From assembly GCF_027744825.2 (NCBI RefSeq), contig NC_071339.1, positions 26,397,501 to 26,461,500 on the forward strand: a stretch of DNA of 64,000 bases, given 5' to 3'. The notes beneath the pieces are model-generated. The model saw only the letters and a program-made list of their open reading frames with translations, was not told the origin of the DNA and did no database searches. Below, in pieces: positions 11,801-61,721 of the stretch. Source of the stretch: Synchiropus splendidus. Its lineage: Eukaryota > Chordata > Actinopteri > Syngnathiformes > Callionymidae. Position 1 is the stretch's first letter; every line of letters begins with the position of its first letter. Made by a program: the position numbers and the translations under genes.

Positions 11801-12540
11801 ATGCCACAATGCAGGAAATGCGTTTTCAGCCTGAGATAAGGTCGATTCCGGAACGCCAAACATAAAAATATTGATAACTTTGGAAAAACACTTCAGACAG
11901 CTTAGATTTGATGTGCAACTACTAGAAAGACCCTTTCTGCTATAGTGGGAGGAGAAAATTTCATGTTCTGAAGTCTCCCTGCAAAGTTATGGCACTATCC
12001 AGAAAACGCGTTTTCAGCCTGAGATAAGGTGGGTTCCAGAACGCCAAACATAAAAATGTGGATAACTTTGGAAAAACACTTCAGACAGCTTAGATTTGAT
12101 GTGCAACTACTAGAAAGACCCTTTCTGCTATAGTGGGAGGTGAAAATGTCATGTTCTGAAGCTTCCCTGCAAAGTTATGGCAAAATATGTAAAGCGCGTT
12201 TTCAGGCTGAGATAAGGTCGATTCCGAAACGCCAAACATAAAAATGTTGATAACTTTGGAAAAACACTTTCGACAGCTTAGATTTGATGTGCAACTACTA
12301 GAAAGACCCTTTCTGCTATAGTGGGAGGTTAAAATTTCATGTTCTGAAGCTTCCCTGCAAAGTTATGGCACAATGCGTAAAACGCGTTTTCAGCCTGAGA
12401 TGAGGTTGATTTCAGAACGCCAAACATAAAAATGTTGAGAACTTTGGAAAAACACTTCAGACAGCTAAGATTTGATGTGCAACTACTAGAAAGACCCTTT
12501 CTGCTATAGTGGGAGGTGAAAATTTCATGTTCTGGAGCTT
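8850..12540 (+). repeat. 12/13-monomer duplication (2256 then 2444 bp spacing)
   Basis: A distinctive segment at about 8894-9175 (with TTTTATGTGC, CCCTCTCTGC and a TTTGATTTGATG variant) is repeated at about 11150-11431, 2256 bp or 12 monomers away. Further along, markers are 2444 bp apart (13 monomers): GCTTCACTGC lies at 9341 and 11785, and CAAAATATGTAAAG at 9737 and 12181. The change in spacing shows that one additional monomer was gained or lost in one copy. The intervening sequence includes the perfect 376-bp duplication listed separately. Confidence 0.78.
10337..11088 (+). repeat. Apparently perfect tandem duplication of a 376-bp dimer
   Basis: The dimer 10337-10712 appears base-for-base the same as 10713-11088 when read side by side. 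It includes the private variants GCTACAGTGGGAGG, ATGCAAGAAACGCG, GATTCATGAACGCC and the GGTTAGATTTG change. Perfect identity against a diverged background means a very recent event, or alternatively an assembly duplication. All surrounding monomers differ from these at several positions. Confidence 0.85.
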
Positions 12541-12599
12541 ACCATCAAAGTTTTGGCACAATGCAGAAAACACGTTTTAAGCCTGAGATAAGATGGGTT

Positions 12600-21200: not shown

Positions 21201-24200
21201 GCGTAAAATGCGTTTTCAGCCTGAGATAAGGTCGATTCCGGAACGCCAAACATAAAAATGTTGATAAATTTGGCAAAACACTTCAGACAGCTTAGATTTG
21301 ATGTGCAACTACTAGAAAGACCCTTTCTACTATAGTGGGAGGTGAAAATTTCATGTTCTGAGGCATCCCTGCAAAGTTATGGCACAATGCAGAAAACACG
21401 TTTCCAGCCTGAGATAAAATGGGTTCCGGAACGCCAAACATAAAAATGTTGATACGTTTGGAAAAACACTTCAGACAGCTTAGATTTGATATGCAACTAC
21501 GTAAAAAACCTTTCTGCTATAGTGGGAGGTGAAAATTTCATGTTCTGAAGCTTTATGCAAAGTTATGGCACAATGCGTAAAACGCGTTTTCAACCTGAGA
21601 TAAGGTTGATTCCGGAACGCCAAACATAAAAATGTTGATAACTTTGGAAAAACATTTCAGACAGCTTAGATTTGATCTGCAACTACTAGAAAGACCCTTT
21701 CTGCTATAGTGGGAGGTGAAAATTTCATGTTCTGAAGCTTTATGCAAAGTTGTGGCACAATGCGTAAAAAGCGTTTTCAGCCTAAGATAAGGTCGACTCC
21801 GGAACGCCAAAAATAAAAATGTTGATCAGGTTGGAAAAACACTTCAGACAGCTTATCTTTAATGTGCAACTACGAGACAGACCCTTTCTGCTATTGTGGG
21901 ATGTGAAAATTTCATGTTCTGAAGCTTCCCTGCAAAGTTATGGCACAATGCAGAAAAAACGTTTTCAGCCTGAGATAAGGTCGATTCCGGAACGCCAAAC
22001 ATAAAACTGTTGATAATTTTGGAAAAACACTTCAGACAGCTTAGATTTGATGTGCAACTTCTAGAAAGACCCTTTCTGCCATTGTGGGAGGTGAAAAATT
22101 CATGTTCTGAAGCTTCCTTGCAAAGTTATGGCACTATGCGTAAAACGCGTTTACAGCCTGAGATAAGGTCGATTCCGGAACGCCAAACATAAAAGTGTTG
22201 ATAACTTTGAAAAGACACTTCAGACAGCTTAGATTCGATGTGCAACTACTAGAAAGACCCTTTCTACTATAGCGGGTGGTGAAAATTTCATGTTCTGAGG
22301 CTTCCCTGCAAAGTTACGGCACAATGCAGAAAACACATTTTCAGACTGAGATAAGGTGGGTTCCAGAACGCCAAACAAAAAAATGTTGATAACTTTGGAA
22401 AAACATTTCAGACAGCTTAGATTTTATCTGCAACTACTAGAAAGACCCTTTCTACTATAGCGGGAGGTGAAAATTTCATGTTCTGAAGCTTTATGCAAAG
22501 TTATGGCACAATGCGTAAAACGCGTTTTCAGCCTGAGATAAGGTCGATTCCAGAACGCCAAACATTAAAATGTGGATAACTTTGGAAAAACACTTCAGAC
22601 AGCATAAATTTGATGTACAACTACTAGAAAGACCTTTTCTGCTATAGCGCAAGTTTAAAATTTCATGTTCTGAAGCTTCCCTGCAAAGTTATGGCACAAT
22701 GCAGAAAACGCGTTTTCAGCGTGAGATAAGGTCGATTCCAGAACGCCAAACATAAAAATGTTGATAACTTTGGAAAAACACTTCAGACTGCTTAGATTTG
22801 ATGTGCAACTACTAGAAAGACCCTTTCTGATATAGTGGGTGGTGAAAATCCGATGTTCTGAAGCTTCCCTCCAAAGCTATGGCATAATGCGTAAAACGCG
22901 TTTTCAGTCTGAGATAAGGTCGATTCCGGAACGCCAAACATAAAAATGTTGATAACTTTGGAAAAACACTTCAGACAGCTTAGCTTTGATGTGCAACTAC
23001 TAGAAAGACCCTTTCTGCTATAGTGGAAGTTTAAAATGTCATGTTCTGAAGCTTCCCTGCAAAGTCATGGCACCATGCGTAAAACGCGTTTTCAGCCTGA
23101 GATAAGGTCGATTCCCGAATGCCAAACATAAAAGTGTTGATAACTTTGAAAAGACACTTCGGACAGCTTAGATCTGATGTGCAACTACTAGAAAGACCCT
23201 TTCTGCTATAGTGGGAGGTTGAAAATTTCATGTTCTGAAGCTTCCCTGAGAAGTTATGGCACAATGCAGAAAACACATTTTCAGACTGAGATAAGGTGGG
23301 TTCCAGAACGCCAAACATAAAAATGATGATAACTTTGGAAAAACACTTCAGACAGCTTAGATTTGATGTCCAACTACTAGAAAGACCTTTTCTGCTATAG
23401 CGCAAGTTTAAAATTTCATGTTCTGAAGCTTCCCTGCAAAGTTATGGCACAATGCAGAAAACACGACTTCAGCCTGAGATAAGATAGATTCTGGTACGCC
23501 AAACATAAAAATGTTGATAACTTTGGAAAAACACTTCAGACAGCTTAGATTTGATGTGCAACTACGAGAAAGACCGTTTCTGCTATAGTGGGAGGTGAAA
23601 ATTCGATGTTCTGAAGCTTCCCTGCAAAGTTATGGCACCATGCGTAAAACGCGTTTTCAGCCTGAGATAAGGTAGATTCCGGAACGCCAAACATAAACAC
23701 GTTCATAATTCTGGAAAAACACTTCAGACAGCTTAGATTTGATGTGCAACTACTAGAAAGACCATTTCTGCCATTGTGGGAGGTGAAAATTCGATGTTCT
23801 GAAGCTTCCCTGCAAAGTTATGCTACAATGCAGGAAACGTGTTTTCAGCCTGAGATAAGGTCGATTCCGGAACGCCAAACGTAAAAATGTTGATAACTTC
23901 GGAAAAAAAATTCAGACAGCTTAGATTTGATGTACAAGTACGAGAAGGACCCTTTCTGCTATAGTGGGAGGTGAAAATTTAATGTTCTGAAGCTTTCCTG
24001 CAAAGTTATGGCACAATGCGTAAAATGCGTTTTCAGCCTGAGATAAGGTCGATTCCGGAACGCCAAACATAAAAATGTTGATAAATTTGGCAAAACACTT
24101 AAGACAGCTTAGATTTGATGTGCAACTACTAGAAAGACCCTTTCTACTATAGTGGGAGGTGAAAATTTCATGTTCTGAGGCATCCCTGCAAAGTTATGCC

Positions 24201-26834
24201 ACAATGCAGAAAACACGTTTCCAGCCTGAGATAAAATGGGTTCCGGAACGCCAAACATAAAAATGTTGATACGTTTGGAAAAACACTTCAGACAGCTTAG
24301 ATTTGATATGCAACTACGTAAAAAACCTTTCTGCTATAGTGGGAGGTGAAAATTTCATGTTCTGAAGCTTTATGCAAAGTTATGGCACAATGCGTAAAAC
24401 GCGTTTTCAACCTGAGATAAGGTTGATTCCGGAACGCCAAACATAAAAATGTTGATAACTTTGGAAAAACATTTCAGACAGCTTAGATTTGATCTGCAAC
24501 TACTAGAAAGACCCTTTCTGCTATAGTGGGAGGTGAAAATTTCATGTTCTGAAGCTTTATGCAAAGTTGTGGCACAATGCGTAAAAAGCGTTTTCAGCCT
24601 AAGATAAGGTCGACTCCGGAACGCCAAAAATAAAAATGTTGATCAGGTTGGAAAAACACTTCAGACAGCTTATCTTTAATGTGCAACTACGAGACAGACC
24701 CTTTCTGCTATTGTGGGATGTGAAAATTTCATGTTCTGAAGCTTCCCTGCAAAGTTATGGCACAATGCAGAAAAAACGTTTTCAGCCTGAGATAAGGTCG
24801 ATTCCGGAACGCCAAACATAAAACTGTTGATAATTTTGGAAAAACACTTCAGACAGCTTAGATTTGATGTGCAACTTCTAGAAAGACCCTTTCTGCCATT
24901 GTGGGAGGTGAAAAATTCATGTTCTGAAGCTTCCTTGCAAAGTTATGGCACCATGCGTAAAACGCGTTTACAGCCTGAGATGAGGTCGATTCCGGAACGC
25001 CAAACATAAAAGTGTTGATAACTTTGAAAAGACAGTTCAGACAGCTTAGATTCGATGTGCAACTACTAGAAAGACCCTTTCTACTATAGCGGGTGGTGAA
25101 AATTTCATGTTCTGAGGCTTCCCTGCAAAGTTACGGCACAATGCAGAAAACACATTTTCAGACTGAGATAAGGTGGGTTCCAGAACGCCAAACAAAAAAA
25201 TGTTGATAACTTTGGAAAAACATTTCAGACAGCTTAGATTTTATCTGCAACTACTAGAAAGACCCTTTCTACTATAGCGGGAGGTGAAAATTTCATGTTC
25301 TGAAGCTTTATGCAAAGTTATGGCACAATGCGTAAAACGCGTTTTCAGCCTGAGATAAGGTCGATTCCAGAACGCCAAACATTAAAATGTGGATAACTTT
25401 GGAAAAACACTTCAGACAGCATAAATTTGATGTACAACTACTAGAAAGACCTTTTCTGCTATAGCGCAAGTTTAAAATTTCATGTTCTGAAGCTTCCCTG
25501 CAAAGTTATGGCACAATGCAGAAAACGCGTTTTCAGCGTGAGATAAGGTCGATTCCAGAACGCCAAACATAAAAATGTTGATAACTTTGGAAAAACACTT
25601 CAGACTGCTTAGATTTGATGTGCAACTACTAGAAAGACCCTTTCTGATATAGTGGGTGGTGAAAATCCGATGTTCTGAAGCTTCCCTCCAAAGCTATGGC
25701 ATAATGCGTAAAACGCGTTTTCAGTCTGAGATAAGGTCGATTCCGGTACGCCAAACATAAAAATGTTGATAACTTTGGAAAAACACTTCAGACAGCTTGG
25801 CTTTGATGTGCAACTACTAGAAAGACCCTTTCTGCTATAGTGGAAGTTTAAAATGTCATGTTCTGAAGCTTCCCTGCAAAGTCATGGCACCATGCGTAAA
25901 ACGCGTTTTCAGCCTGAGATAAGGTCGATTCCCGAATGCCAAACATAAAAGTGTTGATAACTTTGAAAAGACACTTCGGACAGCTTAGATCTGATGTGCA
26001 ACTACTAGAAAGACCCTTTCTGCTATAGTGGGAGGTTGAAAATTTCATGTTCTGAAGCTTCCCTGAGAAGTTATGGCACAATGCAGAAAACACATTTTCA
26101 GACTGAGATAAGGTGGGTTCCAGAACGCCAAACATAAAAATGATGATAACTTTGGAAAAACACTTCAGACAGCTTAGATTTGATGTCCAACTACTAGAAA
26201 GACCTTTTCTGCTATAGCGCAAGTTTAAAATTTCATGTTCTGAAGCTTCCCTGCAAAGTTATGGCACAATGCAGAAAACACGACTTCAGCCTGAGATAAG
26301 ATAGATTCTGGTACACCAAACATAAAAATGTTGATAACTTTGGAAAAACACTTCAGACAGCTTAGATTTGATGTGCAACTACGAGAAAGACCGTTTCTGC
26401 TATAGTGGGAGGTGAAAATTCGATGTTCTGAAGCTTCCCTGCAAAGTTATGGCACCATGCGTAAAACGCGTTTTCAGCCTGAGATAAGGTAGATTCCGGA
26501 ACGCCAAACATAAACACGTTCATAATTCTGGAAAAACACTTCAGACAGCTTAGATTTGATGTGCAACTACTAGAAAGACCATTTCTGCCATTGTGGGAGG
26601 TGAAAATTCGATGTTCTGAAGCTTCCCTGCAAAGTTATGCCACAATGCAGGAAATGCGTTTTCAGCCTGAGATAAGGTCGATTCCGGAACGCCAAACATA
26701 AAAATGTTGATAACTTCGGAAAAAAAATTCAGACAGCATAGATTTGATGTACAAGTACGAGAAGGACCCTTTCTGCTATAGTGGGAGGTGAAAATTTAAT
26801 GTTCTGAAGCTTTCCTGCAAAGTTATGGCACAAT
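21201..26834 (+). repeat. Two adjacent 15-monomer higher-order repeats of 2817 bp
   Basis: The two 2817-bp units differ by only a few substitutions over long stretches. The length is accounted for at base level: 15 x 188 is 2820, three monomers have GAAGCTTTATGC (one base shorter than GAAGCTTCCCTGC), one has CTACGTAAAAAACC (one base shorter than CTACTAGAAAGACCC), and one has GAGGTTGAAAA (one base longer). The sum is minus three. The same pair recurs at 34167-39800 and 46757-52390. Confidence 0.9.
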
Positions 26835-28619
26835 GCGTAAAATGCGTTTTCAGCCTGAGATAAGGTTGATTCCGGAACGCCAAACTTAAAAATGTTGATT
26901 ACTTTGGAAAAACACTTCAAACAGTTTAGATTTGATGTGCAACTACTAGAAAGACCCTTTCTGCTATAGTGGGATGTAGAAATTTCATGTTCTGAAGCTT
27001 CCCTGCAAAGTTATGCCACAATGCAGGAAACGCGTTTTCAGCCTGAGATAAGGTCGATTCCGGAACGCCAAACATAAAAATATTGATAACTTTGGAAAAA
27101 CTCTTTAGACAGCTTAGATTTGATGTGCAACTACTAGAAAGAGCCTTTCTGCTATAGTGGGAGTTGAAAATTTCATGTTCTGAAGCTTTCCTGCAAAGTT
27201 ATGGCACAATGCGTAAAACGCGTTTTCAGCCTCAGATAAGGTTGATTCCGGAACACCAAACAAAAAAGTGTTGATAACTTTGGAAAAACAATTCAAACAG
27301 CTTCGATTTGATGTGCAACTACTAGAAAGACCCTTTCTGCTTTCGTGGGAGGTTAAAATTTCATGTTCTGAAGCTTCCCTGCAAAGTTATGTCACAATGC
27401 AGAAAACGCGTTTTCAGCCTGACATAAGGTCAATTCCGGAACGCCAAACATAAAAATGTTGATAACTTCGGAAAAACACTTCAGACAGCTTAGATTTGAA
27501 GTACAAGTACGAGAAAGACCCTTTCTGCTATAGTGGGAGGTGAAAATTTAATGTTCTGAAGCTTTCCTGCAAAGTTATGGCACAATGCGTAAAATGCGTT
27601 TTCAGCCTGAGATAAGGTTGATTCCGGAACGCCAGACTTAAAAATGTTGATTACTTTGGAAAAACACTTCAAACAGTTTAGATTTGATGTGCAACTACTA
27701 GAAAGACCCTTTCTGCTATAGTGGGATGTAGAAATTTCATGTTCTGAAGCTTCCCTGCAAAGTTATGGCACAATGCAGAAAACGCGTTTTCAGCCTGAGA
27801 TAAGGTGGGTTCCAGAACGCCAAACATAAAAATGTTGATAACTTTGGAAAAACAATTCAAACAGCTTCGATTTGATGTGCAACTACTAGAAAGACCCTTT
27901 CTGCTATCGTGGGAGGTGAAAATTTCATGTTCTGAAGCTTCCCTGCAAAGTTATGTCACAATGCAGAAAACGCGTTTTCAGCCTGAGAAAAGGTCGATTC
28001 AGGAACACCAAACATAAAAATGTTGAAAACATTCGAAAAACACTTCAGACAGCTGAGATTTGATGTGCAACTACGAGAAAGACCCTTTCTGCTATAGTGG
28101 GAGATGAAAATTTCATTTTCTGAAGCTTCCCCGCAAAGTTGTGGCACAATGCAGAAAACACATTTTCAGCCTGAGATAAGGTTGATTCCGGAACGCCAAA
28201 CATAAAAATGTTGATAACTTTGGTAAAACACTTCAAACAGCTTAGATTTGATGTGGAACTACTAGAAAGACCCTTTCTGCTATAGTGGGAGGTGGAAAAT
28301 TTTTGTTCTGAAGCTTCCCTGCAAAGTTATGGCACAATGCGTAAAACGCGTTTTCAGTCTCAGATAAGGTTGGTTCCGGAACACCAAACAAAAAAGTGTT
28401 GATAACTTTGGAAAAACAATTCAAACAGCTTCGATTTGATGTGCAACTACTAGAAAGACCCTTTCTGCTATCGTGGGAGGTTAAAATTTCATGTTCTGAA
28501 GCTTCCCTGCAAATTTATGTCACAATGCAGAAAACGCGTTTTCAGCCTGACATAAGGTCAATTCCGGAACGCCAAACATAAAAATGTTGATAACTTCGGA
28601 AAAACACTTCAGACAGCTT

Positions 28620-31600
28620 AGATTTGATGTACAAGTACGAGAAAGACCCTTTCTGCTATAGTGGGAGGTGAAAATTTAATGTTCTGAAGCTTTCCTGCAA
28701 AGTTATGGCACTATGCGTAAAATGCGTTTTCAGCCTGAGATAAGGTTGATTCCGGAACGCCAAACATAAAAATATTGATAACTTTGGAAAAACTCTTTAG
28801 ACAGCTTAGATTTGATGTGCAAATACTAGAAAGAGCCTTTCTGCTATAGTGGGAGTTTAAAATTTCATGTTCTGAAGCTTTCCTGCAAAGTTATGGCACA
28901 ATGCGTAAAACGCGTTTTCAGCCTCAGATAAGGTTGATTCCGGAACACCAAACAAAAAAGTGTTGATAACTTTGGAAAAACAATTCAAACAGCTTCGATT
29001 TGATGTGCAACTACTAGAAAGACCCTTTCTGCTATCGTGGGAGGTTAAAATTTCATGTTCTGAAGCTTCCCTGCAAATTTATGTCACAATGCAGAAAACG
29101 CGTTTTCAGCCTGACATAAGGTCAATTCCGGAACGCCAAACATAAAAATGTTGATAACTTCGGAAAAACACTTCAGACAGCTTAGATTTGATGTACAAGT
29201 ACGAGAAAGACCCTTTCTGCTATAGTGGGAGGTGAAAATTTAATGTTCTGAAGCTTTCCTGCAAAGTTATGGCACAATGCGTAAAATGCGTTTTCAGCCT
29301 GAGATAAGGTTGATTCCGGAACGCCAGACTTAAAAATGTTGATTACTTTGGAATAACACTTCAAACAGTTTAGATTTGATGTGCAACTACTAGAAAGACC
29401 CTTTCTGCTATAGTGTGATGTAGAAATTTCATGTTCTGAAACTTCCCTGCAAACTTATGGCACAATGCAGAAAACGCGTTTTCAGCCTGAGATAAGGTGG
29501 GTTCCTGAACGCCAAATATAAAAATGATGATAACTTTGGAAAAACACTTCAGACAGCTTAGATTTGATGTCCAACTACTAGAAAGACCTTTTCTGCTATA
29601 GCGCAAGTTTAAAATTTCATGTTCTGAAGCTTCCCTGCAAAGTTATGGCACAATGCAGAAAACACGTCTTCAGCCTGAGATAAGATAGATTCTGGTACGC
29701 CAAACATAAAAATGTTGATAACTTTGGAAAAACACTTCAGACAGCTTAGATTTGATGTGCAACTACGAGAAAGACCGTTTCTGCTATAGTGGGAGGTGAA
29801 AATTCGATGTTCTGAAGCTTCCCTGCAAAGTTATGGCACCATGCGTAAAACGCGTTTTCAGCCTGAGATAAGGTCGATTCCGGAACGCCAAACATAAACA
29901 CGTTCATAATTCTGGAAAAACACCTCAGACAGCTTAAATTTGATGTGCAACTACTAGAAAGACCATTTCTGCCATTGTGGGAGGTGAAAATTCGATGTTC
30001 TGAAGCTTCCCTGCAAAGTTATGCCACAATGCAGGAAACGCGTTTTCAGCCTGAGATAAGGTCGATTCCGGAACGCCAAACATAAAAATATTGATAACTT
30101 TGGAAAAACTCTTTAGACAGCTTAGATTTGATGTGCAACTACTAGAAAGAGCCTTTCTGCTATAGTGGGAGTTGAAAATTTCATGTTCTGAAGCTTTCCT
30201 GCAAAGTTATGGCACAATGCGTAAAACGCGTTTTCAGCCTCAGATAAGGTTGATTCCGGAACACCAAACAAAAAAGTGTTGATAACTTTGGAAAAACAAT
30301 TCAAACAGCTTCGATTTGATGTGCAACTACTAGAAAGACCCTTTCTGCTATCGTGGGAGGGTAAAATTTCATGTTCTGAAGCTTCCCTGCAAATTTATGT
30401 CACAATGCAGAAAACGCGTTTTCAGCCTGACATAAGGTCAATTCCGGAACGCCAAACATAAAAATGTTGATAACTTCGGAAAAACACTTCAGACAGCTTA
30501 GATTTGATGTACAAGTACGAGAAAGACCCTTTCTGCTATAGTGGGAGGTGAAAATTTAATGTTCTGAAGCTTTCCTGCAAAGTTATGGCACAATGCGTAA
30601 AATGCGTTTTCAGCCTGAGATAAGGTTGATTCCGGTACGCCAAACATAAAAATATTGATAACTTTGGAAAAACTCTTTAGACAGCTTAGATTTGATGTGC
30701 AACTACTAGAAAGAGCCTTTCTGCTATAGTGGGAGTTGAAAATTTCATGTTCTGAAGCTTTCCTGCAAAGTTATGGCACAATGCGTAAAACGCGTTTTCA
30801 GCCTCAGATAAGGTTGATTCCGGAACACCAAACAAAAAAGTGTTGATAACTTTGGAAAAACAATTCAAACAGCTTCGATTTGATGTGCAACTACTAGAAA
30901 GACCCTTTCTGCTATCGTGGGAGGTTAAAATTTCATGTTCTGAAGCTTCCCTGCAAATTTATGTCACAATGCAGAAAACGCGTTTTCAGCCTGACATAAG
31001 GTCAATTCCGGAACGCCAAACATAAAAATGTTGATAACTTCGGAAAAACACTTCAGACAGCTTAGATTTGATGTACAAGTACGAGAAAGACCCTTTCTGC
31101 TATAGTGGGAGGTGAAAATTTAATGTTCTGAAGCTATCCTGCAAAGTTATGGCACAATGCGTAAAATGCGTTTTCAGCCTGAGATAAGGTTGATTCCGGA
31201 ACGCCAGACTTAAAAATGTTGATTACTTTGGAATAACACTTCAAACAGTTTAGATTTGATGTGCAACTACTAGAAAGACCCTTTCTGCTATAGTGTGATG
31301 TAGAAATTTCATGTTCTGAAACTTCCCTGCAAACTTATGGCACAATGCAGAAAACGCGTTTTCAGCCTGAGATAAGGTGGGTTCCTGAACGCCAAACATA
31401 AAAATGATGATAACTTTGGAAAAACACTTCAGACAGCTTAGATTTGATGTCCAACTACTAGAAAGACCTTTTCTGCTATAGCGCAAGTTTAAAATTTCAT
31501 GTTCTGAAGCTTCCCTGCAAAGTTATGGCACAATGCAGAAAACACGTCTTCAGCCTGAGATAAGATAGATTCTGGTACGCCAAACATAAAAATGTTGATA

Positions 31601-33990: not shown

Positions 33991-34166
33991 TCTTCAGCCT
34001 GAGATAAGATAGATTCTGGTACGCCAAACATAAAAATGTTGATAACTTTGGAAAAACACTTCAGACAGCTTAGATTTGATGTGCAACTACGAGAAAGAAC
34101 GTTTCTGCTATAGTGGGAGGTGAAAATTCGATGTTCTGAAGCTTCCCTGCAAAGTTATGGCACCAT

Positions 34167-43100: not shown

Positions 43101-46100
43101 GCAACTACTAGAAAGAGCCTTTCTGCTATAGTGGGAGTTGAAAATTTCATGTTCTGAAGCTTTCCTGCAAAGTTATGGCACAATGCGTAAAACGCGTTTT
43201 CAGCCTCAGATAAGGTTGATTCCGGAACACCAAACAAAAAAGTGTTGATAACTTTGGAAAAACAATTCAAACAGCTTCGATTTGATGTGCAACTACTAGA
43301 AAGACCCTTTCTGCTATCGTGGGAGGTTAAAATTTCATGTTCTGAAGCTTCCCTGCAAATTTATGTCACAATGCAGAAAACGCGTTTTCAGCCTGACATA
43401 AGGTCAATTCCGGAACGCCAAACATAAAAATGTTGATAACTTCGGAAAAACACTTCAGACAGCTTAGATTTGATGTACAAGTACGAGAAAGACCCTTTCT
43501 GCTATAGTGGGAGGTGAAAATTTAATGTTCTGAAGCTTTCCTGCAAAGTTATGGCACAATGCGTAAAATGCGTTTTCAGCCTGAGATAAGGTTGATTCCG
43601 GAACGCCAAACATAAAAATGTTGATAACTTTGGTAAAACACTTCAAACAGCTTAGATTTGATGTGGAACTACTAGAAAGACCCTTTCTGCTATAGTGGGA
43701 GGTGGAAAATTTTTGTTCTGAAGCTTCCCTGCAAAGTTATGGCACAATGCGTAAAACGCGTTTTCAGTCTCAGATAAGGTTGGTTCCGGAACACCAAACA
43801 AAAAAGTGTTGATAACTTTGGAAAAACAATTCAAACAGCTTCGATTTGATGTGCAACTACTAGAAAGACCCTTTCTGCTATCGTGGGAGGTTAAAATTTC
43901 ATGTTCTGAAGCTTCCCTGCAAATTCATGTCACAATGCAGAAAACGCGTTTTCAGCCTGACATAAGGTCAATTCCGGAACGCCAAACATAAAAATGTTGA
44001 TAACTTCGGAAAAACACTTCAGACAGCTTAGATTTGATGTACAAGTACGAGAAAGACCCTTTCTGCTATAGTGGGAGGTGAAAATTTAATGTTCTGAAGG
44101 TTTCCTGCAAAGTTATGGCACAATGCGTAAAATGCGTTTTCAGCCTGAGATAAGGTTGATTCCGGAACGCCAAACATAAAAATGTTGATAACTTCGGAAA
44201 AACACTTCAGACAGCTTAGATTTGATGTGCAACTACTAGAAAGACCTTTTCTGCTATAGTGGGAGGTGAAATTTTCATGTTCTGAAGCTTTCCTGCAAAG
44301 TTATGGCACAATGCGTAAAATGCGTTTTCAGCCTGAGATAAGGTTGATTCCGGAATGCCAAACATAAAAATTTTGGTGACTTTGGACAAACACTTCTGAC
44401 AGCTTCGATTTGATGTGCAATTACGAGAAAGACCATTTCTGCCATTGTGGGAGGTGAAAATTCGATGTTCTGAAGCTTCCCTGCAAAGGTATGCCACAAT
44501 GCAGGAAACGCGTTTTCAGCCTGAGATAAGGTCGATTCCGGAACGCCAAACATAAAAATATTGATAACTTTGGAAAAACTCTTTAGACAGCTTAGATTTG
44601 ATGTGCAACTACTAGAAAGAGCCTTTCTGCTATAGTGGGAGTTGAAAATTTCATGTTCTGAAGCTTTCCTGCAAAGTTATGGCACAATGCGTAAAACGCG
44701 TTTTCAGCCTCAGATAAGGTTGATTCCGGAACACCAAACAAAAAAGTGTTGATAACTTTGGAAAAACAATTCAAACAGCTTCGATTTGATGTGCAACTAC
44801 TAGAAAGACCCTTTCTGCTATCGTGGGAGGTTAAAATTTCATGTTCTGAAGCTTCCCTGCAAATTTATGTCACAATGCAGAAAACGCGTTTTCAGCCTGA
44901 CATAAGGTCAATTCCGGAACGCCAAACATAAAAATGTTGATAACTTCGGAAAAACACTTCAGACAGCTTAGATTTGATGTACAAGTACGAGAAAGACCCT
45001 TTCTGCTATAGTGGGAGGTGAAAATTTAATGTTCTGAAGCTTTCCTGCAAAGTTATGGCACAATGCGTAAAATGCGTTTTCAGCCTGAGATAAGGTTGAT
45101 TCCGGAACGCCAAACATAAAAATATTGATAACTTTGGAAAAACTCTTTAGACAGCTTAGATTTGATGTGCAACTACTAGAAAGAGCCATTCTGCTATAGT
45201 GGGAGTTGAAAATTTCATGTTCTGAAGCTTTCCTGCAAAGTTATGGCACAATGCGTAAAACGCGTTTTCAGCCTCAGATAAGGTTGATTCCGGAACACCA
45301 AACAAAAAAGTGTTGATAACTTTGGAAAAACAATTCAAACAGCTTCGATTTGATGTGCAACTACTAGAAAGACCCTTTCTGCTATCGTGGGAGGTTAAAA
45401 TTTCATGTTCTGAAGCTTCCCTGCAAATTTATGTCACAATGCAGAAAACGCGTTTTCAGCCTGACATAAGGTCAATTCCGGAACGCCAAACATAAAAATG
45501 TTGATAACTTCGGAAAAACACGTCAGACAGCTTAGATTTGATGTACAAGTACGAGAAAGACCCTTTCTGCTATAGTGGGAGGTGAAAATTTAATGTTCTG
45601 AAGCTTTCCTGCAAAGTTATGGCACAATGCGTAAAATGCGTTTTCAGCCTGAGATAAGGTTGATTCCGGAACGCCAGACTTAAAAATGTTGATTACTTTG
45701 GAAAAACACTTCAAACAGTTTAGATTTGATGTGCAACTACTAGAAAGACCCTTTCTGCTATAGTGTGATGTAGAAATTTCATGTTCTGAAACTTCACTGC
45801 AAACTTATGGCACAATGCAGAAAACGCGTTTTCAGCCTGAGATAAGGTGGGTTCCTGAACGCCAAACATAAAAATGATGATAACTTTGGAAAAACACTTC
45901 AGACAGCTTAGATTTGATGTCCAACTACTAGAAAAACCTTTTCTGCTATTGCGCAAGTTTAAAATTTCATGTTCTGAAGCTTCCCTGCAAAGTTATGGCA
46001 CAATGCAGAAAACACGTCTTCAGCCTGAGATAAGATAGATTCTGGTACGCCAAACATAACAATGTTGATAACTTTGGAAAAACACTTCAGACAGCTTAGA

Positions 46101-46756
46101 TTTGATGTGCAACTACGAGAAAGACCGTTTCTGCTATAGTGGGAGGTGAAAATTCGATGTTCTGAAGCTTCCCTGCAAAGTTATGGCACCATGCGTAAAA
46201 CGCGTTTTCAGCCTGAGATAAGGTCGATTCCGGAACGCCAAACATAAACACGTTCATAATTCTGGAAAAACACCTCAGACAGCTTAAATTTGATGTGCAA
46301 CTACTAGAAAGACCATTTCTGCCATTGTGAGAGGTGAAAATTCGATGTTCTGAAGCTTCCCTGCAAAGTTATGCCACAATGCAGGAAACGCGTTTTCAGC
46401 CTGAGATAAGGTCGATTCCGGAACGCCAAACATAAAAATATTGATAACTTTGGAAAAACTCTTTAGACAGCTTAGATTTGATGTGCAACTACTAGAAAGA
46501 GCCTTTCCGCTATAGTGGGAGTTGAAAATTTCATGTTCTGAAGCTTTCCTGCAAAGTTATGGCACAATGCAGAAAACACGTCTTCAGCCTGAGATAAGAT
46601 AGATTCTGGTACGCCAAACATAAAAATGTTGATAACTTTGGAAAAACACTTCAGACAGCTTAGATTTGATGTGCAACTACGAGAAAGAACGTTTCTGCTA
46701 TAGTGGGAGGTGAAAATTCGATGTTCTGAAGCTTCCCTGCAAAGTTATGGCACCAT
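34167..46756 (+). repeat. Super-repeat copy 2 (12,590 bp = two 15-mers + 37 monomers)
   Basis: This unit starts at 34167 and is followed by the next copy at 46757. It holds 15-mers at 34167-36983 and 36984-39800, then 6956 bp, exactly 37 x 188. Compared with copy 1 it is shorter by 376 bp (two monomers). The difference lies between about 43.47 and 44.56 kb, where monomers of another class, including one with TTTTGGTGAC at 44371, replace part of the 10-mer series. Outside this segment the two copies are nearly identical. Confidence 0.9.
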
Positions 46757-49700
46757 GCGTAAAACGCGTTTTCAGCCTGAGATAAGGTCGATTAGGGAAC
46801 GCCAAACATAAAAATGTTGATAAATTTGGCAAAACACTTCAGACAGCTTAGATTTGATGTGCAACTACTAGAAAGACCCTTTCTACTATAGTGGGAGGTG
46901 AAAATTTCATGTTCTGAGGCATCCCTGCAAAGTTATGGCACAATGCAGAAAACACGTTTCCAGCCTGAGATAAAATGGGTTCCGGAACGCCAAACATAAA
47001 AATGTTGATACGTTTGGAAAAACACTTCAGACAGCTTAGATTTGATATGCAACTACGTAAAAAACCTTTCTGCTATAGTGGGAGGTGAAAATTTCATGTT
47101 CTGAAGCTTTATGCAAAGTTATGGCACAATGCGTAAAACGCGTTTTCAACCTGAGATAAGGTTGATTCCGGAACGCCAAACATAAAAATGTTGATAACTT
47201 TGGAAAAACATTTCAGACAGCTTAGATTTGATCTGCAACTACTAGAAAGACCCTTTCTGCTATAGTGGGAGGTGAAAATTTCATGTTCTGAAGCTTTATG
47301 CAAAGTTGTGGCACAATGCGTAAAAAGCGTTTTCAGCCTAAGATAAGGTCGACTCCGGAACGCCAAAAATAAAAATGTTGATCAGGTTGGAAAAACACTT
47401 CAGACAGCTTATCTTTAATGTGCAACTACGAGACAGACCCTTTCTGCTATTGTGGGATGTGAAAATTTCATGTTCTGAAGCTTCCCTGCAAAGTTATGGC
47501 ACAATGCAGAAAAAACGTTTTCAGCCTGAGATAAGGTCGATTCCGGAACGCCAAACATAAAACTGTTGATAATTTTGGAAAAACACTTCAGACAGCTTAG
47601 ATTTGATGTGCAACTTCTAGAAAGACCCTTTCTGCCATTGTGGGAGGTGAAAAATTCATGTTCTGAAGCTTCCTTGCAAAGTTATGGCACCATGCGTAAA
47701 ACGCGTTTACAGCCTGAGATAAGGTCGATTCCGGAACGCCAAACATAAAAGTGTTGATAACTTTGAAAAGACACTTCAGACAGCTTAGATTCGATGTGCA
47801 ATTACTAGAAAGACCCTTTCTACTATAGCGGGTGGTGAAAATTTCATGTTCTGAGGCTTCCCTGCAAAGTTACGGCACAATGCAGAAAACACATTTTCAG
47901 ACTGAGATAAGGTGGGTTCCAGAACGCCAAACAAAAAAATGTTGATAACTTTGGAAAAACATTTCAGACAGCTTAGATTTTATCTGCAACTACTAGAAAG
48001 ACCCTTTCTACTTTAGCGGGAGGTGAAAATTTCATGTTCTGAAGCTTTATGCAAAGTTATGGCACAATGCGTAAAACGCGTTTTCAGCCTGAGATAAGGT
48101 CGATTCCAGAACGCCAAACATTAAAATGTGGATAACTTTGGAAAAACACTTCAGACAGCATAAATTTGATGTACAACTACTAGAAAGACCTTTTCTGCTA
48201 TAGCGCAAGTTTAAAATTTCATGTTCTGAAGCTTCCCTGCAAAGTTATGGCACAATGCAGAAAACGCGTTTTCAGCGTGAGATAAGGTCGATTCCAGAAC
48301 GCCAAACATAAAAATGTTGATAACTTTGGAAAAACACTTCAGACTGCTTAGATTTGATGTGCAACTACTAGAAAGACCCTTTCTGATATAGTGGGTGGTG
48401 AAAATCCGATGTTCTGAAGCTTCCCTCCAAAGCTATGGCATAATGCGTAAAACGCGTTTTCAGTCTGAGATAAGGTCGATTCCGGAACGCCAAACATAAA
48501 AATGTTGATAACTTTGGAAAAACACTTCAGACAGCTTAGCTTTGATGTGCAACTACTAGAAAGACCCTTTCTGCTATAGTGGAAGTTTAAAATGTCATGT
48601 TCTGAAGCTTCCCTGCAAAGTCATGGCACCATGCGTAAAACGCGTTTTCAGCCTGAGATAAGGTCGATTCCCGAATGCCAAACATAAAAGTGTTGATAAC
48701 TTTGAAAAGACACTTCGGACAGCTTAGATCTGATGTGCAACTACTAGAAAGACCCTTTCTGCTATAGTGGGAGGTTGAAAATTTCATGTTCTGAAGCTTC
48801 CCTGAGAAGTTATGGCACAATGCAGAAAACACATTTTCAGACTGAGATAAGGTGGGTTCCAGAACGCCAAACATAAAAATGATGATAACTTTGGAAAAAC
48901 ACTTCAGACAGCTTAGATTTGATGTCCAACTACTAGAAAGACCTTTTCTGCCATAGCGCAAGTTTAAAATTTCATGTTCTGAAGCTTCCCTGCAAAGTTA
49001 TGGCACAATGCAGAAAACACGACTTCAGCCTGAGATAAGATAGATTCTGGTACGCCAAACATAAAAATGTTGATAACTTTGGAAAAACACTTCAGACAGA
49101 TTAGATTTGATGTGCAACTACGAGAAAGACCGTTTCTGCTATGGTGGGAGGTGAAAATTCGATGTTCTGAAGCTTCCCTGCAAAGTTATGGCACCATGCG
49201 TAAAACGCGTTTTCAGCCTGAGATAAGGTAGATTCCGGAACGCCAAACATAAACACGTTCATAATTCTGGAAAAACACTTCAGACAGCTTAGATTTGATG
49301 TGCAACTACTAGAAAGACCATTTCTGCCATTGTGGGAGGTGAAAATTCGATGTTCTGAAGCTTCCCTGCAAAGTTATGCCACAATGCAGGAAACGTGTTT
49401 TCAGCCTGAGATAAGGTCGATTCCGGAACGCCAAACATAAAAATGTTGAGAACTTCGGAAAAAAAATTCAGACAGCTTAGATTTGATGTACAAGTACGAG
49501 AAGGACCCTTTCTGCTATAGTGGGAGGTGAAAATTTAATGTTCTGAAGCTTTCCTGCAAAGTTATGGCACAATGCGTAAAATGCGTTTTCAGCCTGAGAT
49601 AAGGTCGATTCCGGAACGCCAAACATAAAAATGTTGATAAATTTGGCAAAACACTTCAGACAGCTTAGATTTGATGTGCAACTACTAGAAAGACCCTTTC

Positions 49701-52700
49701 TACTATAGTGGGAGGTGAAAATTTCATGTTCTGAGGCATCCCTGCAAAGTTATGGCACAATGCAGAAAACACGTTTCCAGCCTGAGATAAAATGGGTTCC
49801 GGAACGCCAAACATAAAAATGTTGATACGTTTGGAAAAACACTTCAGACAGCTTAGATTTGATATGCAACTACGTAAAAAACCTTTCTGCTATAGTGGGA
49901 GGTGAAAATTTCATGTTCTGAATCTTTATGCAAAGTTATGGCACAATGCGTAAAACGCGTTTTCAACCTGAGATAAGGTTGATTCCGGAACGCCAAACAT
50001 AAAAATGTTGATAACTTTGGAAAAACATTTCAGACAGCTTAGATTTGATCTGCAACTACTAGAAAGACCCTTTCTGCTATAGTGGGAGGTGAAAATTTCA
50101 TGTTCTGAAGCTTTATGCAAAGTTGTGGCACAATGCGTAAAAAGCGTTTTCAGCCTAAGATAAGGTCGACTCCGGAACGCCAAAAATAAAAATGTTGATC
50201 AGGTTGGAAAAACACTTCAGACAGCTTATCTTTAATGTGCAACTACGAGACAGACCCTTTCTGCTATTGTGGGATGTGAAAATTTCATGTTCTGAAGCTT
50301 CCCTGCAAAGTTATGGCACAATGCAGAAAAAACGTTTTCAGCCTGACATAAGGTCGATTCCGGAACGCCAAACATAAAACTGTTGATAATTTTGGAAAAA
50401 CACTTCAGACAGCTTAGATTTGATGTGCAACTTCTAGAAAGACCCTTTCTGCCATTGTGGGAGGTGAAAAATTCATGTTCTGAAGCTTCTTTGCAAAGTT
50501 ATGGCACCATGCGTAAAACGCGTTTACAGCCTGAGATAAGGTCGATTCCGGAACGCCAAACATAAAAGTGTTGATAACTTTGAAAAGACACTTCAGACAG
50601 CTTAGATTCGATGTGCAACTACTAGAAAGACCCTTTCTACTATAGCGGGTGGTGAAAATTTCATGTTCTGAGGCTTCCCTGCAAAGTTACGGCACAATGC
50701 AGAAAACACATTTTCAGACTGAGATAAGGTGGGTTCCAGAACGCCAAACAAAAAAATGTTGATAACTTTGGAAAAACATTTCAGACAGCTTAGATTTTAT
50801 CTGCAACTACTAGAAAGACCCTTTCTACTATAGCGGGAGGTGAAAATTTCATGTTCTGAAGCTTTATGCAAAGTTATGGCACAATGCGTAAAACGCGTTT
50901 TCAGCCTGAGATAAGGTCGATTCCAGAACGCCAAACATTAAAATGTGGATAACTTTGGAAAAACACTTCAGACAGCATAAATTTGATGTACAACTACTAG
51001 AAAGACCTTTTCTGCTATAGCGAAAGTTTAAAATTTCATGTTCTGAAGCTTCCCTGCAAAGTTATGGCACAATGCAGAAAACGCGTTTTCAGCGTGAGAT
51101 AAGGTCGATTCCAGAACGCAAAACATAAAAATGTTGATAACTTTGGAAAAACACTTCAGACTGCTTAGATTTGATGTCCAACTACTAGAAAGACCCTTTC
51201 TGATATAGTGGGTGGTGAAAATCCGATGTTCTGAAGCTTCCCTCCAAAGCTATGGCATAATGCGTAAAACGCGTTTTCAGTCTGAGATAAGGTCGATTCC
51301 GGAACGCCAAACATAAAAATGTTGATAACTTTGGAAAAACACTTCAGACAGCTTAGCTTTGATGTGCAACTACTAGAAAGACCCTTTCTGCTATAGTGGA
51401 AGTTTAAAATGTCATGTTCTGAAGCTTCCCTGCAAAGTCATGGCACCATGCGTAAAACGCGTTTTCAGCCTGAGATAAGGTCGATTCCCGAATGCCAAAC
51501 ATAAAAGTGTTGATAACTTTGAAAAGACACTTCGGACAGCTTAGATCTGATGTGCAACTACTAGAAAGACCCTTTCTGCTATAGTGGGAGGTTGAAAATT
51601 TCATGTTCTGAAGCTTCCCTGAGAAGTTATGGCACAATGCAGAAAACACATTTTCAGACTGAGATAAGGTGGGTTCCAGAACGCCAAACATAAAAATGAT
51701 GATAACTTTGGAAAAACACTTCAGACAGCTTAGATTTGATGTCCAACTACTAGAAAGACCTTTTCTGCTATAGCGCAAGTTTAAAATTTCATGTTCTGAA
51801 GCTTCCCTGCAAAGTTATGGCACAATGCAGAAAACACGACTTCAGCCTGAGATAAGATAGATTCTGGTACACCAAACATAAAAATGTTGATAACTTTGGA
51901 AAAACACTTCAGACAGCTTAGATTTGATGTGCAAGTACGAGAAAGACCGTTTCTGCTATAGTGGGAGGTGAAAATTCGATGTTCTGAAGCTTCCCTGCAA
52001 AGTTATGGCACCATGCGTAAAACGCGTTTTCAGCCTGAGATAAGGTAGATTCCGGAACGCCAAACATAAACACGTTCATAATTCTGGAAAAACACTTCAG
52101 ACAGCTTAGATTTGATGTGCAACTACTAGAAAGACCATTTCTGCCATTGTGGGAGGTGAAAATTCGATGTTCTGAAGCTTCCCTGCAAAGTTATGCCACA
52201 ATGCAGGAAATGCGTTTTCAGCCTGAGATAAGGTCGATTCCGGAACGCCAAACATAAAAATGTTGATAACTTCGGAAAAAAAATTCAGACAGCTTAGATT
52301 TGATGTACAAGTACGAGAAGGACCCTTTCTGCTATAGTGGGAGGTGAAAATTTAATGTTCTGAAGCTTTCCTGCAAAGTTATGGCACAATGCGTAAAATG
52401 CGTTTTCAGCCTGAGATAAGGTTGATTTCGAAACGCCAAACTTAAAAATGTTGATTACTTTGGAAAAACACTTCAAACAGTTTAGATTTGATGTGCAACT
52501 ACTAGAAAGACCCTTTCTGCTATCGTGGGAGGTTAAAATTTCATGTTCTGAAGCTTCCCTGCAAATTTATGTCACAATGCAGAAAACGCGTTTTCAGCCT
52601 GACATAAGGTCAATTCCGGAACGCCAAACATAAAAATGTTGATAACTTCGGAAAAACACTTCAGACAGCTTAGATTTGATGTACAAGTACGAGAAAGACC

Positions 52701-55700
52701 CTTTCTGCTATAGTGGGAGGTGAAAATTTAATGTTCTGAAGCTTTCCTGCAAAGTTATGGCACAATGCGTAAAATGCGTTTTCAGCCTGAGATAAGGTTG
52801 ATTCCGGAACGCCAGACTTAAAAATGTTGATTACTTTGGAAAAATACTTCAAACAGTTTAGATTTGATGTGCAACTACTAGAAAGACCCTTTCTGCTATA
52901 GTGTGATGTAGAAATTTCATGTTCTGAAACTTCAAGTGCAAACTTATGGCACAATGCAGAAAACGCGTTTTCAGCCTGAGATAAGGTGGGTTCCTGAATG
53001 CCAAACATAAAAATGATGATAACTTTGGAAAAATACTTCAGACAGCTTAGATTTGATGTCCAACTACTAGAAAAACCTTTTCTGCTATAGCGCAAGTTTA
53101 AAATTTCATGTTCTGAAGCTTCCCTGCAAAGTTATGGCACAATGCAGAAAACACGTCTTCAGCCTGAGATAAGATAGATTCTGGTACGCCAAACATAACA
53201 ATGTTGATAACTTCGGAAAAACACTTCAGACAGCTTAGATTTGATGTGCAACTACGAGAAAGACCGTTTCTGCTATAGTGGGAGGTGAAAATTCGATGTT
53301 CTGAAGCTTCCCTGCAAAGTTATGGCACCATGCGTAAAACGCGTTTTCAGCCTGAGATAAGGTCGATTCCGGAACGCCAAACATAAACACGTTCATAATT
53401 CTGGAAAAACACCTCAGACAGCTTAAATTTGATGTGCAACTACTAGAAAGACCATTTCTGCCATTGTGGGAGGTGAAAATTCGATGTTCTGAAGCTTCCC
53501 TGCAAAGTTATGCCACAATGCAGGAAACGCGTTTTCAGCCTGAGATAAGGTCGATTCCGGAACGCCAAACATAAAAATATTGATAACTTTGGAAAAACTC
53601 TTTAGACAGCTTAGATTTGATGTGCAACTACTAGAAAGAGCCTTTCTGCTATAGTGGGAGTTGAAAATTTCATGTTCTGAAGCTTTCCTGCAAAGTTATG
53701 GCACAATGCGTAAAACGCGTTTTCAGCCTCAGATAAGGTTGATTCCGGAACACCAAACAAAAAAGTGTTGATAACTTTGGAAAAACAATTCAAACAGCTT
53801 CGATTTGATGTGCAACTACTAGAAAGACCCTTTCTGCTATCGTGGGAGGTTAAAATTTCATGTTCTGAAGCTTCCCTGCAAAGTTATGTCACAATGCAGA
53901 AAACGCGTTTTCAGCCTGACATAAGGTCAATTCCGGAACGCCAAACATAAAAATGTTGATAACTTCGGAAAAACACTTCAGACAGCTTAGATTTGATGTA
54001 CAAGTACGAGAAAGACCCTTTCTGCTATAGTGGGAGGTGAAAATTTCATGTTCTGAAGCTTTCCTGCAAAGTTATGGCACAATGCGTAAAATGCGTTTTC
54101 AGCCTGAGATAAGGTTGATTCCGGAACGCCAGACTTAAAAATGTTGATTACTTTGGAAAAACACTTCAAACAGTTTAGATTTGATGTGCAACTACTAGAA
54201 AGACCCTTTCTGCTATAGTGGGATGTAGAAATTTCATGTTCTGAAGCTTCCCTGCAAAGTTATGGCACAATGCAGAAAACGCGTTTTCAGCCTGAGATAA
54301 GGTGGGTTCCAGAACGCCAAACATAAAAATGTTGATAACTTTGGAAAAACAATTCAAACAGCTTCGATTTGATGTGCAACTACTAGAAAGACCCTTTCTG
54401 CTATCGTGGGAGGTGAAAATTTCATGTTCTGAAGCTTCCCTGCAAAGTTATGTCACAATGCAGAAAACGCGTTTTCAGCCTGAGAAAAGGTCGATTCAGG
54501 AACACCAAACATAAAAATGTTGAAAACATTCGAAAAACACTTCAGACAGCTGAGATTTGATGTGCAACTACGAGAAAGACCCTTTCTGCTATAGTGGGAG
54601 ATGAAAATTTCATTTTCTGAAGCTTCCCTGCAAAGTTGTGGCACAATGCAGAAAACACATTTTCAGCCTGAGATAAGGTAGATTCCGGAACGCCAAACAT
54701 AAAAATGTTGATAACTTTGGTAAAACACTTCAAACAGCTTAGATTTGATGTGGAACTACTAGAAAGACCCTTTCTGCTATAGTGGGAGGTGGAAAATTTT
54801 TGTTCTGAAGCTTCCCTGCAAAGTTATGGCACAATGCAGAAAACGCGTTTTCAGCCTCACATAAGGTCGATTCCGGAACGCCAAACATAAAAATGTTGAT
54901 AACTTCGGAAAAACACTTCAGACAGCTTAGATTTGATGTGCAACTACTAGAAAGACCTTTTCTGCTATAGTGGGAGGTGAAATTTTCATGTTCTGAAGCT
55001 TTCCTGCAAAGTTATGGCACAATGCGTAAAATGCGTTTTCAGCCTGAGATAAGGTTGATTCCGGAATGCCAAACATAAAAATTTTGGTGACTTTGGACAA
55101 ACACTTCTGACAGCTTCGATTTGATGTGCAACTACGAGAAAGACCATTTCTGCCATTGTGGGAGGTGAAAATTCGATGTTCTGAAGCTTCCCTGCAAAGT
55201 TATGCCACAATGCAGGAAACGCGTTTTCAGCCTGAGATAAGGTCGATTCCGGAACGCCAAACATAAAAATATTGATAACTTTGGAAAAACTCTTTAGACA
55301 GCTTAGATTTGATGTGCAACTACTAGAAAGAGCCTTTCTGCTATAGTGGGAGTTGAAAATTTCATGTTCTGAAGCTTCCCTGCAAAGTTATGTCACAATG
55401 CAGAAAACGCGTTTTCAGCCTATCATAAGGTCAATTCCGGAACGCCAAACATAAAAATGTTGATAACTTCGGAAAAACACTTCAGACAGCTTAGATTTGA
55501 TGTACAAGTACGAGAAAGACCCTTTCTGCTATAGTGGGAGGTGAAAATTTAATGTTCTGAAGCTTTCCTGCAAAGTTATGGCACAATGCGTAAAATGCGT
55601 TTTCAGCCTGAGATAAGGTTGATTCCGGAACGCCAGACTTAAAAATGTTGATTACTTTGGAAAAACACTTCAAACAGTTTAGATTTGATGTGCAACTACT

Positions 55701-56060
55701 AGAAAGACCCTTTCTGCTATAGTGGGATGTAGAAATTTCATGTTCTGAAGCTTCCCTGCAAAGTTATGGCACAATGCAGAAAACGCGTTTTCAGCCTGAG
55801 ATAAGGTGGGTTCCAGAACGCCAAACATAAAAATGTTGATAACTTTGGAAAAACAATTCAAACAGCTTCGATTTGATGTGCAACTACTAGAAAGACCCTT
55901 TCTGCTATCGTGGGAGGTGAAAATTTCATGTTCTGAAGCTTCCCAGCAAAGTTATGTCACAATGCAGAAAACGCGTTTTCAGCCTGAGAAAAGGTCGATT
56001 CAGGAACACCAAACATAAAAATGTTGAAAACATTCGAAAAACACTTCAGACAGCTTAGAT
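46757..56060 (+). repeat. Super-repeat copy 3, truncated on the right (about 9.3 kb)
   Basis: The copy begins with two 15-mers (46757-49573 and 49574-52390), spaced 12,590 bp from those in copy 2. The following block resembles the other copies but is rearranged. It carries an 8-monomer duplication of 1504 bp (markers at 53987 and 55491, and at 54175 and 55679) and a second example of the TTTTGGTGAC monomer (55082). Similarity to the super-repeat fades at about 56.06 kb, where monomers of a diverged type begin. The copy is therefore incomplete, about 3.3 kb shorter than copy 2. Confidence 0.85.
52391..56060 (+). repeat. 8-monomer (1504-bp) duplication in the tail of super-repeat copy 3
   Basis: Monomers at 53987, 54175 and 54302 reappear at 55491, 55679 and 55806, each 1504 bp (8 x 188) apart. 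Between them lies the segment with the TTTTGGTGAC monomer. This multimer length is not seen in super-repeat copies 1 or 2 at the corresponding place, so it arose after the super-repeat was formed. Confidence 0.75.
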
Positions 56061-61347: not shown

Positions 61348-61668
61348 TGTAAATGTGAATGTTTTGGGTGCTTTGTTAATTGGTTGTGCATTGTTGTTGT
61401 TGTATTTTATTTTGAAAGTCTTTACCGGAAAGTACGTTTTTTATTGATGTTGCTTGAAAAAGACGAAAGAAAGTTTGTTTCCAGTCATCCATTTTTTGTT
61501 GAGGTATTTTTACTTTGCTGTTGCTGTTCACGATCCAAGTCTGCCGTCGATGCAAAGGAGACCAAAGTGGTTCGTTTGTCTATATTTGCGTTATTTTTCC
61601 GTGACAATTGAAGTTGTTCTTTGACCGAGCGAATGCTAATGACTGTGTCTGTTCAGTTCTACGGTGGC

Positions 61669-61674
61669 AATAAA
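61669..61674 (+). promoter_or_regulatory. Polyadenylation signal AATAAA in the putative LTR
   Basis: A canonical AATAAA, followed within about 15 bases by a CATCAGTG stretch. In LTR retroelements such a hexamer is usually near the R region, and an initiator-like TCAGTT lies 16 bases upstream at 61653. A single hexamer can occur by chance, so support comes only from its position. Confidence 0.4.
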
Positions 61675-61721
61675 CATCAGTGAAGACGCTGACGACTCTC
61701 TTCATTCCATCAACGGCATAG

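Follow-up and report, generated by a model that had tools for sequence, protein, structure and literature searches.

Alpha satellite has a monomer of about 171 bp, with a CENP-B box in a subset, and centromeric satellites are bound to CENP-A nucleosomes. A superHOR of human alpha satellite is a repeated string of higher-order repeats (HORs), for which a count of two is enough by default (CentromereArchitect, PMC8336445). The orangutan work uses the same word for an exceptionally long HOR and describes a 58-mer on the Y chromosome, alongside other units that reach 84 monomers in a preliminary analysis (PMC12428378); a 59-mer unit has also been reported (PMC11276891). The Y superHOR comprises 67 copies, 46 of which are canonical at 0.25% divergence, and 44 monomer types occur in the 58-mer (PMC12428378). 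Human chromosome 15 hosts cascading 15-mer and 20-mer HORs, in which monomer types recur within the unit (PMC11050224).

Among fish, the centromere satellite arrays of medaka measure 20-345 kb with long-range higher-order structure reported (PMC5705604), and the nearest fish case among the matches listed is the higher-order 5S rDNA organisation of pikes (PMC5437419). The available parts of the papers on medaka (PMC5705604), grass carp (PMC12204074) and koi (PMC12395963) make no mention of a third nesting level, nor, for medaka, of unit sizes. In the literature that we searched by title and start of abstract, with most subscription papers outside its scope, none of the matches listed described a three-level fish satellite, a 188-bp satellite with HORs or an apt 188-bp fish satellite, and the text of the satellite sequence had no match. 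The third level of the array described below had originally been put forward as possibly new. For human alpha satellite, superHORs are already defined (PMC8336445), and a 58-mer and, in preliminary analysis, an 84-mer have been reported in orangutan (PMC12428378), hence neither the level nor the size is new in kind.

We analyzed a window of 64,000 nucleotides of a probable fish genome (C6:26,397,501-26,461,500, in a 582.7-Mb assembly of 96 contigs). It very likely contains a nested superHOR in a chromosome-end 188-bp satellite, built by stepwise duplication and out-of-register exchange.

Anatomy of the 188-bp satellite array

Tandem Repeats Finder and monomer decomposition assigned window positions 1-61,347 to 326.5 monomers of 188 bp (326 full and one partial), with a mean identity of 93.9% to the consensus. 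The median identity between pairs of monomers is 88.8%, corresponding to a difference of around 11%. By average-linkage clustering at 2.5%, the monomers fall into 111 types, 63 of which are singletons. The spacing between identical 24-mers peaks at 2817 bp (10,463 pairs), 12,966 bp (9,687) and 12,590 bp (8,271), followed by 1880 bp (6,543), 564 bp (6,473) and 25,556 bp (5,530). Spacing and decomposition thus bear out all the periods of the original prediction (188, 1880, 2817, 12,590 and 12,966 bp). When single misses are allowed, a run of 54 monomers recurs at a lag of 69 (112-165 versus 181-234, 99.36% identity) and a run of 42 at a lag of 67 (170-211 versus 237-278, 99.62%). The longest strict run never exceeded 4 in 200 shuffles of monomer order, as compared to 42 in the real array.

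The anatomy of the long units can be read directly from the monomer string. Its features are the following, in window coordinates:

1..61347, + strand: 188-bp satellite array
15596..21229, + strand: older related 15-mer pair, monomers 83-97 and 98-112 (monomer comparison)
21230..34195, + strand: long unit U1, monomers 113-181, 69 monomers, 12,966 bp (monomer string)
21230..24046, + strand: 15-mer a1, 2817 bp
24047..26863, + strand: 15-mer b1, 2817 bp
28180..33819, + strand: three U1 10-mers, 1880 bp each
33820..34007, + strand: U1/U2 junction monomer 180, type 80, an exact hybrid with type 75 on its left and type 61 on its right
34196..46785, + strand: long unit U2, monomers 182-248, 67 monomers, 12,590 bp (monomer string)
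34196..37012, + strand: 15-mer a2
37013..39829, + strand: 15-mer b2
43026..44529, + strand: U2 8-mer variant, with two monomers in place of four of the 10-mer
46410..46597, + strand: second junction monomer 247, type 80, a hybrid like monomer 180 with one more change
46786..52419, + strand: partial unit U3, monomers 249-278, 5,634 bp, consisting of 15-mers a3 and b3 only
52420..52607, + strand: break monomer 279, a hybrid with type 60 on its left and type 58 on its right
52608..55992, + strand: shuffled tail, mostly of unit monomer types
55993..61347, + strand: diverged flank with few repeated types, best matches at a median identity of 95%

U1 is composed of two 15-mers, seven monomers, three 10-mers and two monomers, drawn from 24 monomer types, and U2 of two 15-mers, seven monomers, a 10-mer, an 8-mer, a 10-mer and two monomers, drawn from 27. 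Both unit lengths are exact and equal 2 x 2817 bp plus 39 or 37 x 188 bp, as had been calculated beforehand. The 8-mer variant is single and takes the middle 10-mer position of U2, while the first 10-mer of U1 opens with a monomer of type 78 rather than 75. Every U1 10-mer contains a doubled 3-mer (564 bp), which adds a small nesting level. The 10-mers and an 8-mer had been expected and are present, but not as repeats independent of the 15-mers, given that the monomer string 61-62-73 occurs in both. The older pair at 15,596-21,229 resembles the main 15-mers at around 98% over nine monomers, in a different register.

Rather than the three tandem copies initially proposed, we found two full units and a fragment, corresponding to approximately 2.4 copies. 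U3 is colinear with the other units for 30 monomers only, and a third complete copy is rejected: what stands in its place is the leading 15-mer pair (46,786-52,419) with the shuffled tail. Monomers 279-299 share only 85-95% identity with the partners expected from colinearity of U3; monomers 280-297, up to around position 55,992, are largely of unit types in altered order, and from monomer 298 onward the array is diverged. The multi-level nesting is therefore real and even gains the 564-bp level, whereas the clean tandem array of three is not there. The automated nesting count on the real array returned a depth of 3, through the 3-mer/10-mer chain, and not 4.

Copies of the long unit are far more alike than the monomers that compose them. 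In their colinear parts, U1 and U2 show 66 differences over 9,958 positions and 7 over 2,256. Over the 15-mer pairs with one preceding monomer, U3 differs from U1 at 26 and from U2 at 23 of 5,822 positions. Copies thus differ by 0.3-0.7% over colinear stretches and monomers by about 11%. With 99.3-99.7% identity between the colinear parts of U1 and U2 against 88.8% for the median monomer pair, the long unit qualifies as a HOR. It is not one of the Willard type, in which each monomer type occurs once per unit, because U1 has 69 monomers of 24 types. Smaller tandem repeats are found within the unit (the doubled 15-mer in U1, U2 and U3, the tripled 10-mer in U1 and the doubled 3-mer), and the pattern of HORs, followed by eye in the monomer string, occurs twice, the second time with the 8-mer variant. 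The array is distinct from alpha satellite in its 188-bp monomer and in having no minimal CENP-B box.

Farther left, where the array is older, a separate 7-mer HOR occurs in two copies at 98.7% identity (window 5826-8643).

Other possible contents of the array were considered and set aside. It has nine open frames of at least 120 amino acids, eight of which share a length of 124 amino acids and track the repeats (the longest has 141), and the window has no Rfam match at the gathering score; on these grounds we rejected the idea that the array matters for a coding or structured-RNA content. The minimal CENP-B box has no match on either strand of the array, and a CENP-B-like box in the satellite was likewise rejected. 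Exact pieces of the satellite have no match in bacterial, archaeal or viral contigs, where fish DNA is not expected.

Hybrid monomers and the order of duplications

If the long unit was doubled by an exchange within a monomer, the monomer at the junction should be a hybrid of two predictable parents. The parents can be named from their neighbours, since type 75 follows type 73 in the 10-mers and type 61 precedes types 62-63 to the left of U1. Monomer 180 is indeed a 75|61 hybrid with no mismatch, as compared to five mismatches to the best single parent, and this is the sole zero-mismatch pair among 11,990 ordered pairs of types, with one representative per type. Monomer 279, where U3 breaks off, is a hybrid of its expected neighbours as well: the 60|58 combination reduces the mismatches from 10 to 1 and is also the best pair when type representatives are used (4 mismatches). 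Because the search for chimeras is permissive and other types also improve (type 62, for example, goes from 5 to 0 mismatches), we put weight on the agreement with the predicted pair of parents.

The relative order of the duplications is recorded directly in shared variants, at few sites. The six 15-mers have 37 variable sites, of which 33 are private, 3 are common to b1, b2 and b3, and 1 is common to b2 and b3; none is common to both 15-mers of one unit. The a/b split therefore rests on 3 sites. Five canonical 10-mers have 36 variable sites: 17 join the first copies of U1 and U2 and 4 join the last copies. A further 13 are private, and the remaining 2 are conflicting or ambiguous. The first-copy sites are not independent events, because 13 of 15, as counted by consensus column, lie within one monomer (type 78 versus 75). 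Outside this monomer, around 6 sites favor the grouping and 2 conflict with it. To judge from these few shared sites, the 15-mer and 10-mer duplications appear to be older than the duplication of the 13-kb unit.

Between U1 and U2, the 15-mers show 20 differences and monomers 143-165 show 44, of which 25 are confined to two apparently replaced monomers (145/214 and 163/232). With differences clustered in two monomers, and four monomers turned into two in the 8-mer, the U2 patches look more like conversion than plain duplication. Differences are small throughout, which suggests that the duplication steps probably followed closely on one another.

These data fit a scheme of four steps. Diverged monomers would form the oldest layer. 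Local tandem duplications would then have produced the 3-mer and the 10-mer, presumably in this order, and a 15-mer that doubled. A single out-of-register homologous exchange within a monomer (type 75 x type 61) would have doubled the 69-monomer block, which would have been copied once more soon after. Finally, deletion and small exchanges would have cut the third copy short and swapped a few monomers of U2. We infer that the exchange was an unequal sister-chromatid crossover or break-induced replication.

Alternatively, the block could have been excised as a circle, multiplied by rolling-circle replication and reinserted. This route has been proposed for satellites generally (PMC8122249), and it would likewise yield tandem units with one common junction. 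The right parent of the junction, however, fits U1's own left neighbour (type 61, monomer 111), as predicted by exchange in place. As a circle cut from the array would give an identical junction, the sequence cannot separate the two routes, and we regard the circle as the unlikely one and retain unequal exchange within the array.

The same region on a second contig

The array ends at position 61,347, at a young insertion of a BEL/Pao-type retrotransposon, a kind of LTR element with DUF1759 in its gag. Two of its features lie within the window:

61348..61720, + strand: 5' LTR of the element, 373 bp (LTR pair and target duplication)
62200..63999, + strand: gag-like open frame with DUF1759, running beyond the window

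The two LTRs are identical at 372 of 373 positions and are accompanied by a 5-bp target duplication (AAGAC). The open stretch from 62,200 comprises 600 amino acids and matches DUF1759 with an E-value of 3.9e-10; 18 of 45 relatives of the gag carry an organism name, all of them fish, which makes a teleost the probable source of the sequence, and the best full-length match is 63% identical. Another long duplication is found to the left of the window (C6:26361930-26378200), where a 423-bp LTR-like stretch occurs twice, identical at 422 of 423 positions, with 45 monomers separating its copies. The first 37 of these monomers recur behind the second copy at 99.83%, and the whole 8.4 kb at 98.2%.

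The insertion into the satellite is common to C6 and to a second contig of 1.56 Mb, C23, where the element occupies C23:1200475-1207930. Positions 1,130,546-1,210,171 of C23 track C6:26,390,566-26,468,544 in blocks, as compared up to C6:26,461,500 and from 26,465,501 on. The blocks comprise 36, 80, 9, 210 and 20 monomers at 99.88-100% identity, together with 6,634 identical bases over the edge of the retrotransposon and 3,044 identical bases from C6:26,465,501 on. The block of 210 monomers, which includes both long units and the U3 fragment, differs at 13 of 39,480 positions (99.97% identity). C23 has 13 extra monomers to the left of U1 and, near the right end, 3 monomers versus 6 in C6, and colinearity is lost in the stretches compared to the left of the shared blocks. 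The 564-bp stretch around the type-80 junction is found at 100%, among the candidates scored, only twice on C6 and twice on C23, with the next best match at 97% on C17. The two contigs C6 and C23 probably represent alternative haplotypes of a single locus.

Just left of the shared region, C23:1100189-1130000 holds approximately 159 near-uniform monomers (mean pairwise identity 98.2%, minimum 93.1%) with no HOR peak at lags 1-16. By its uniformity it appears to be a recent monomeric expansion adjoining the HOR array.

It could be argued that the tandem 13-kb units are an artifact of assembly, either one unit written twice or two haplotypes joined end to end. The region does show signs of assembly trouble. 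Much of the locus is repeated in C23, a run of 20 Ns, which need not be a gap, lies right of the window (C6:26,468,545-26,468,564), and the stretch C6:26,479,501-26,484,500 recurs at 100% around 3 Mb away (C6:23465739-23470734). The N run and the duplicated flank suggest unpurged duplicate contigs or a wrong scaffold join, and the placement of the window's sequence on C6 may itself be wrong. The units nevertheless differ from each other, U1 and U2 at the 66 and 7 positions given above, in length (69 versus 67 monomers) and in internal patches, and the 15-mer pair of U3 from those of U1 and U2 at 26 and 23 positions. Moreover, C23 has the same two units and fragment with 13 differences, yet other indels and a non-colinear left side. 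That two differing contigs would both have received the same wrong join is unlikely, unless they were assembled from the same reads. Assembly duplication as the whole explanation was therefore rejected, on the 0.3-0.7% difference between copies and on the presence of both units in C23, and we consider an artifact quite improbable. The occurrence of the nested units in both contigs argues for their reality, short of proof.

The satellite across the genome and its relation to known systems

Among the matches listed, we identified 49 merged satellite loci on 16 chromosome-size contigs, none of them farther than 7.5 Mb from a contig end, with a median distance of 3.1 Mb. The count derives from 65 places among the matches listed (of 148 and 157, with 40 candidates scored of 7,335 and of 3,290), leaving out secondary matches of the same arrays and all matches on the short contigs C20, C22 and C23. 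Two chromosome-size contigs, C1 and C10, have no satellite match among those listed, which leaves 16 positive out of C1-C18; on C2, loci occur close to either end. Of the 49 loci, 47 share one polarity relative to the nearest end, the exceptions being one locus on C5 and one on C16; loci on one chromosome are not independent. Since the 7.5-Mb ends make up 54% of the length of those 16 contigs, the polarity is more striking than the distance. A shared polarity would be in keeping with DNA exchange between the ends of non-homologous chromosomes.

Three other arrays were sampled. A 12-mer was detected on C2 (46 monomers) and a 10-mer on C16 (53 monomers), with only a weak 17-mer signal on C15 (83 monomers). 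The best matches of these monomers in the window average 94.7-94.8% identity, and 5, 2 and 9 monomers of C2, C16 and C15, respectively, reach at least 97%. Judging from these three arrays, HORs seem to be chromosome-specific.

We simulated random segmental duplication and deletion of monomers. At least three nesting levels arose in 24 to 60 of 60 runs over six settings, and the longest period reached at least 60 monomers in 4 to 20 of 60 runs over the same settings. When duplications were short (mean of 5 monomers), no run yielded three levels with a period of at least 50 (40 runs for each of three settings). The rates and the distributions of lengths were chosen arbitrarily, and the simulation consequently speaks to sufficiency only. 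Under this model long duplications must occur, and beyond that nothing special would be required for nesting; the array would need no selection on the 13-kb unit itself. That the 13-kb unit is instead a selected functional unit, such as one of centromere chromatin, and was kept as such is highly improbable: one hypothesis gives large orangutan superHORs of low divergence a role in aiding kinetochore assembly (PMC12428378), and among the matches listed 16 of the 18 largest contigs have the satellite, no farther than 7.5 Mb from an end, but the unit has only two full copies of unequal length, its junction stretch occurs at 100% on two contigs only among the candidates scored, and neutral simulation is sufficient, while the absent CENP-B box neither helps nor excludes such a role.

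Stepwise duplication with out-of-register exchange would make this array a natural example in which ordinary unequal exchange gave rise to long higher-order units, and this in a vertebrate distant from primates. As a rule, large satellite units come into view only once they have been amplified many times. The present one seems to have been caught early, with two full units and one truncated, a recombinant junction monomer that can be followed at the level of single bases, and shared variants that still record the order of duplications. There is a small chance that no superHOR outside primates has been well resolved before this one, which would belong to an undescribed 188-bp satellite of a probable teleost, in the end regions of most chromosomes and with largely fixed polarity. 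If so, nested homogenisation of the alpha-satellite kind would be a general outcome for vertebrate centromeric or pericentromeric arrays, and the duplication of a unit could be caught at its first step, with two copies and a readable hybrid junction.

Like the superHORs of human centromeres (PMC8336445), the array has HORs within a larger repeated string, here of a 188-bp satellite and not of alpha satellite. The medaka arrays (PMC5705604) are teleost satellites too, with a different set of monomers. The cascading HORs of human chromosome 15 (PMC11050224) share the repeated monomer types and the sub-periods; unlike them, the sub-HORs described here are themselves in tandem within the unit (two 15-mers and three 10-mers). 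The cascading superHORs of orangutan are alike in their very long units (67-69 monomers here), recurring types and low divergence among copies. Against the 67 copies on the orangutan Y chromosome, the present array has around 2.4 copies at 0.3-0.7%, in another organism and another satellite family.
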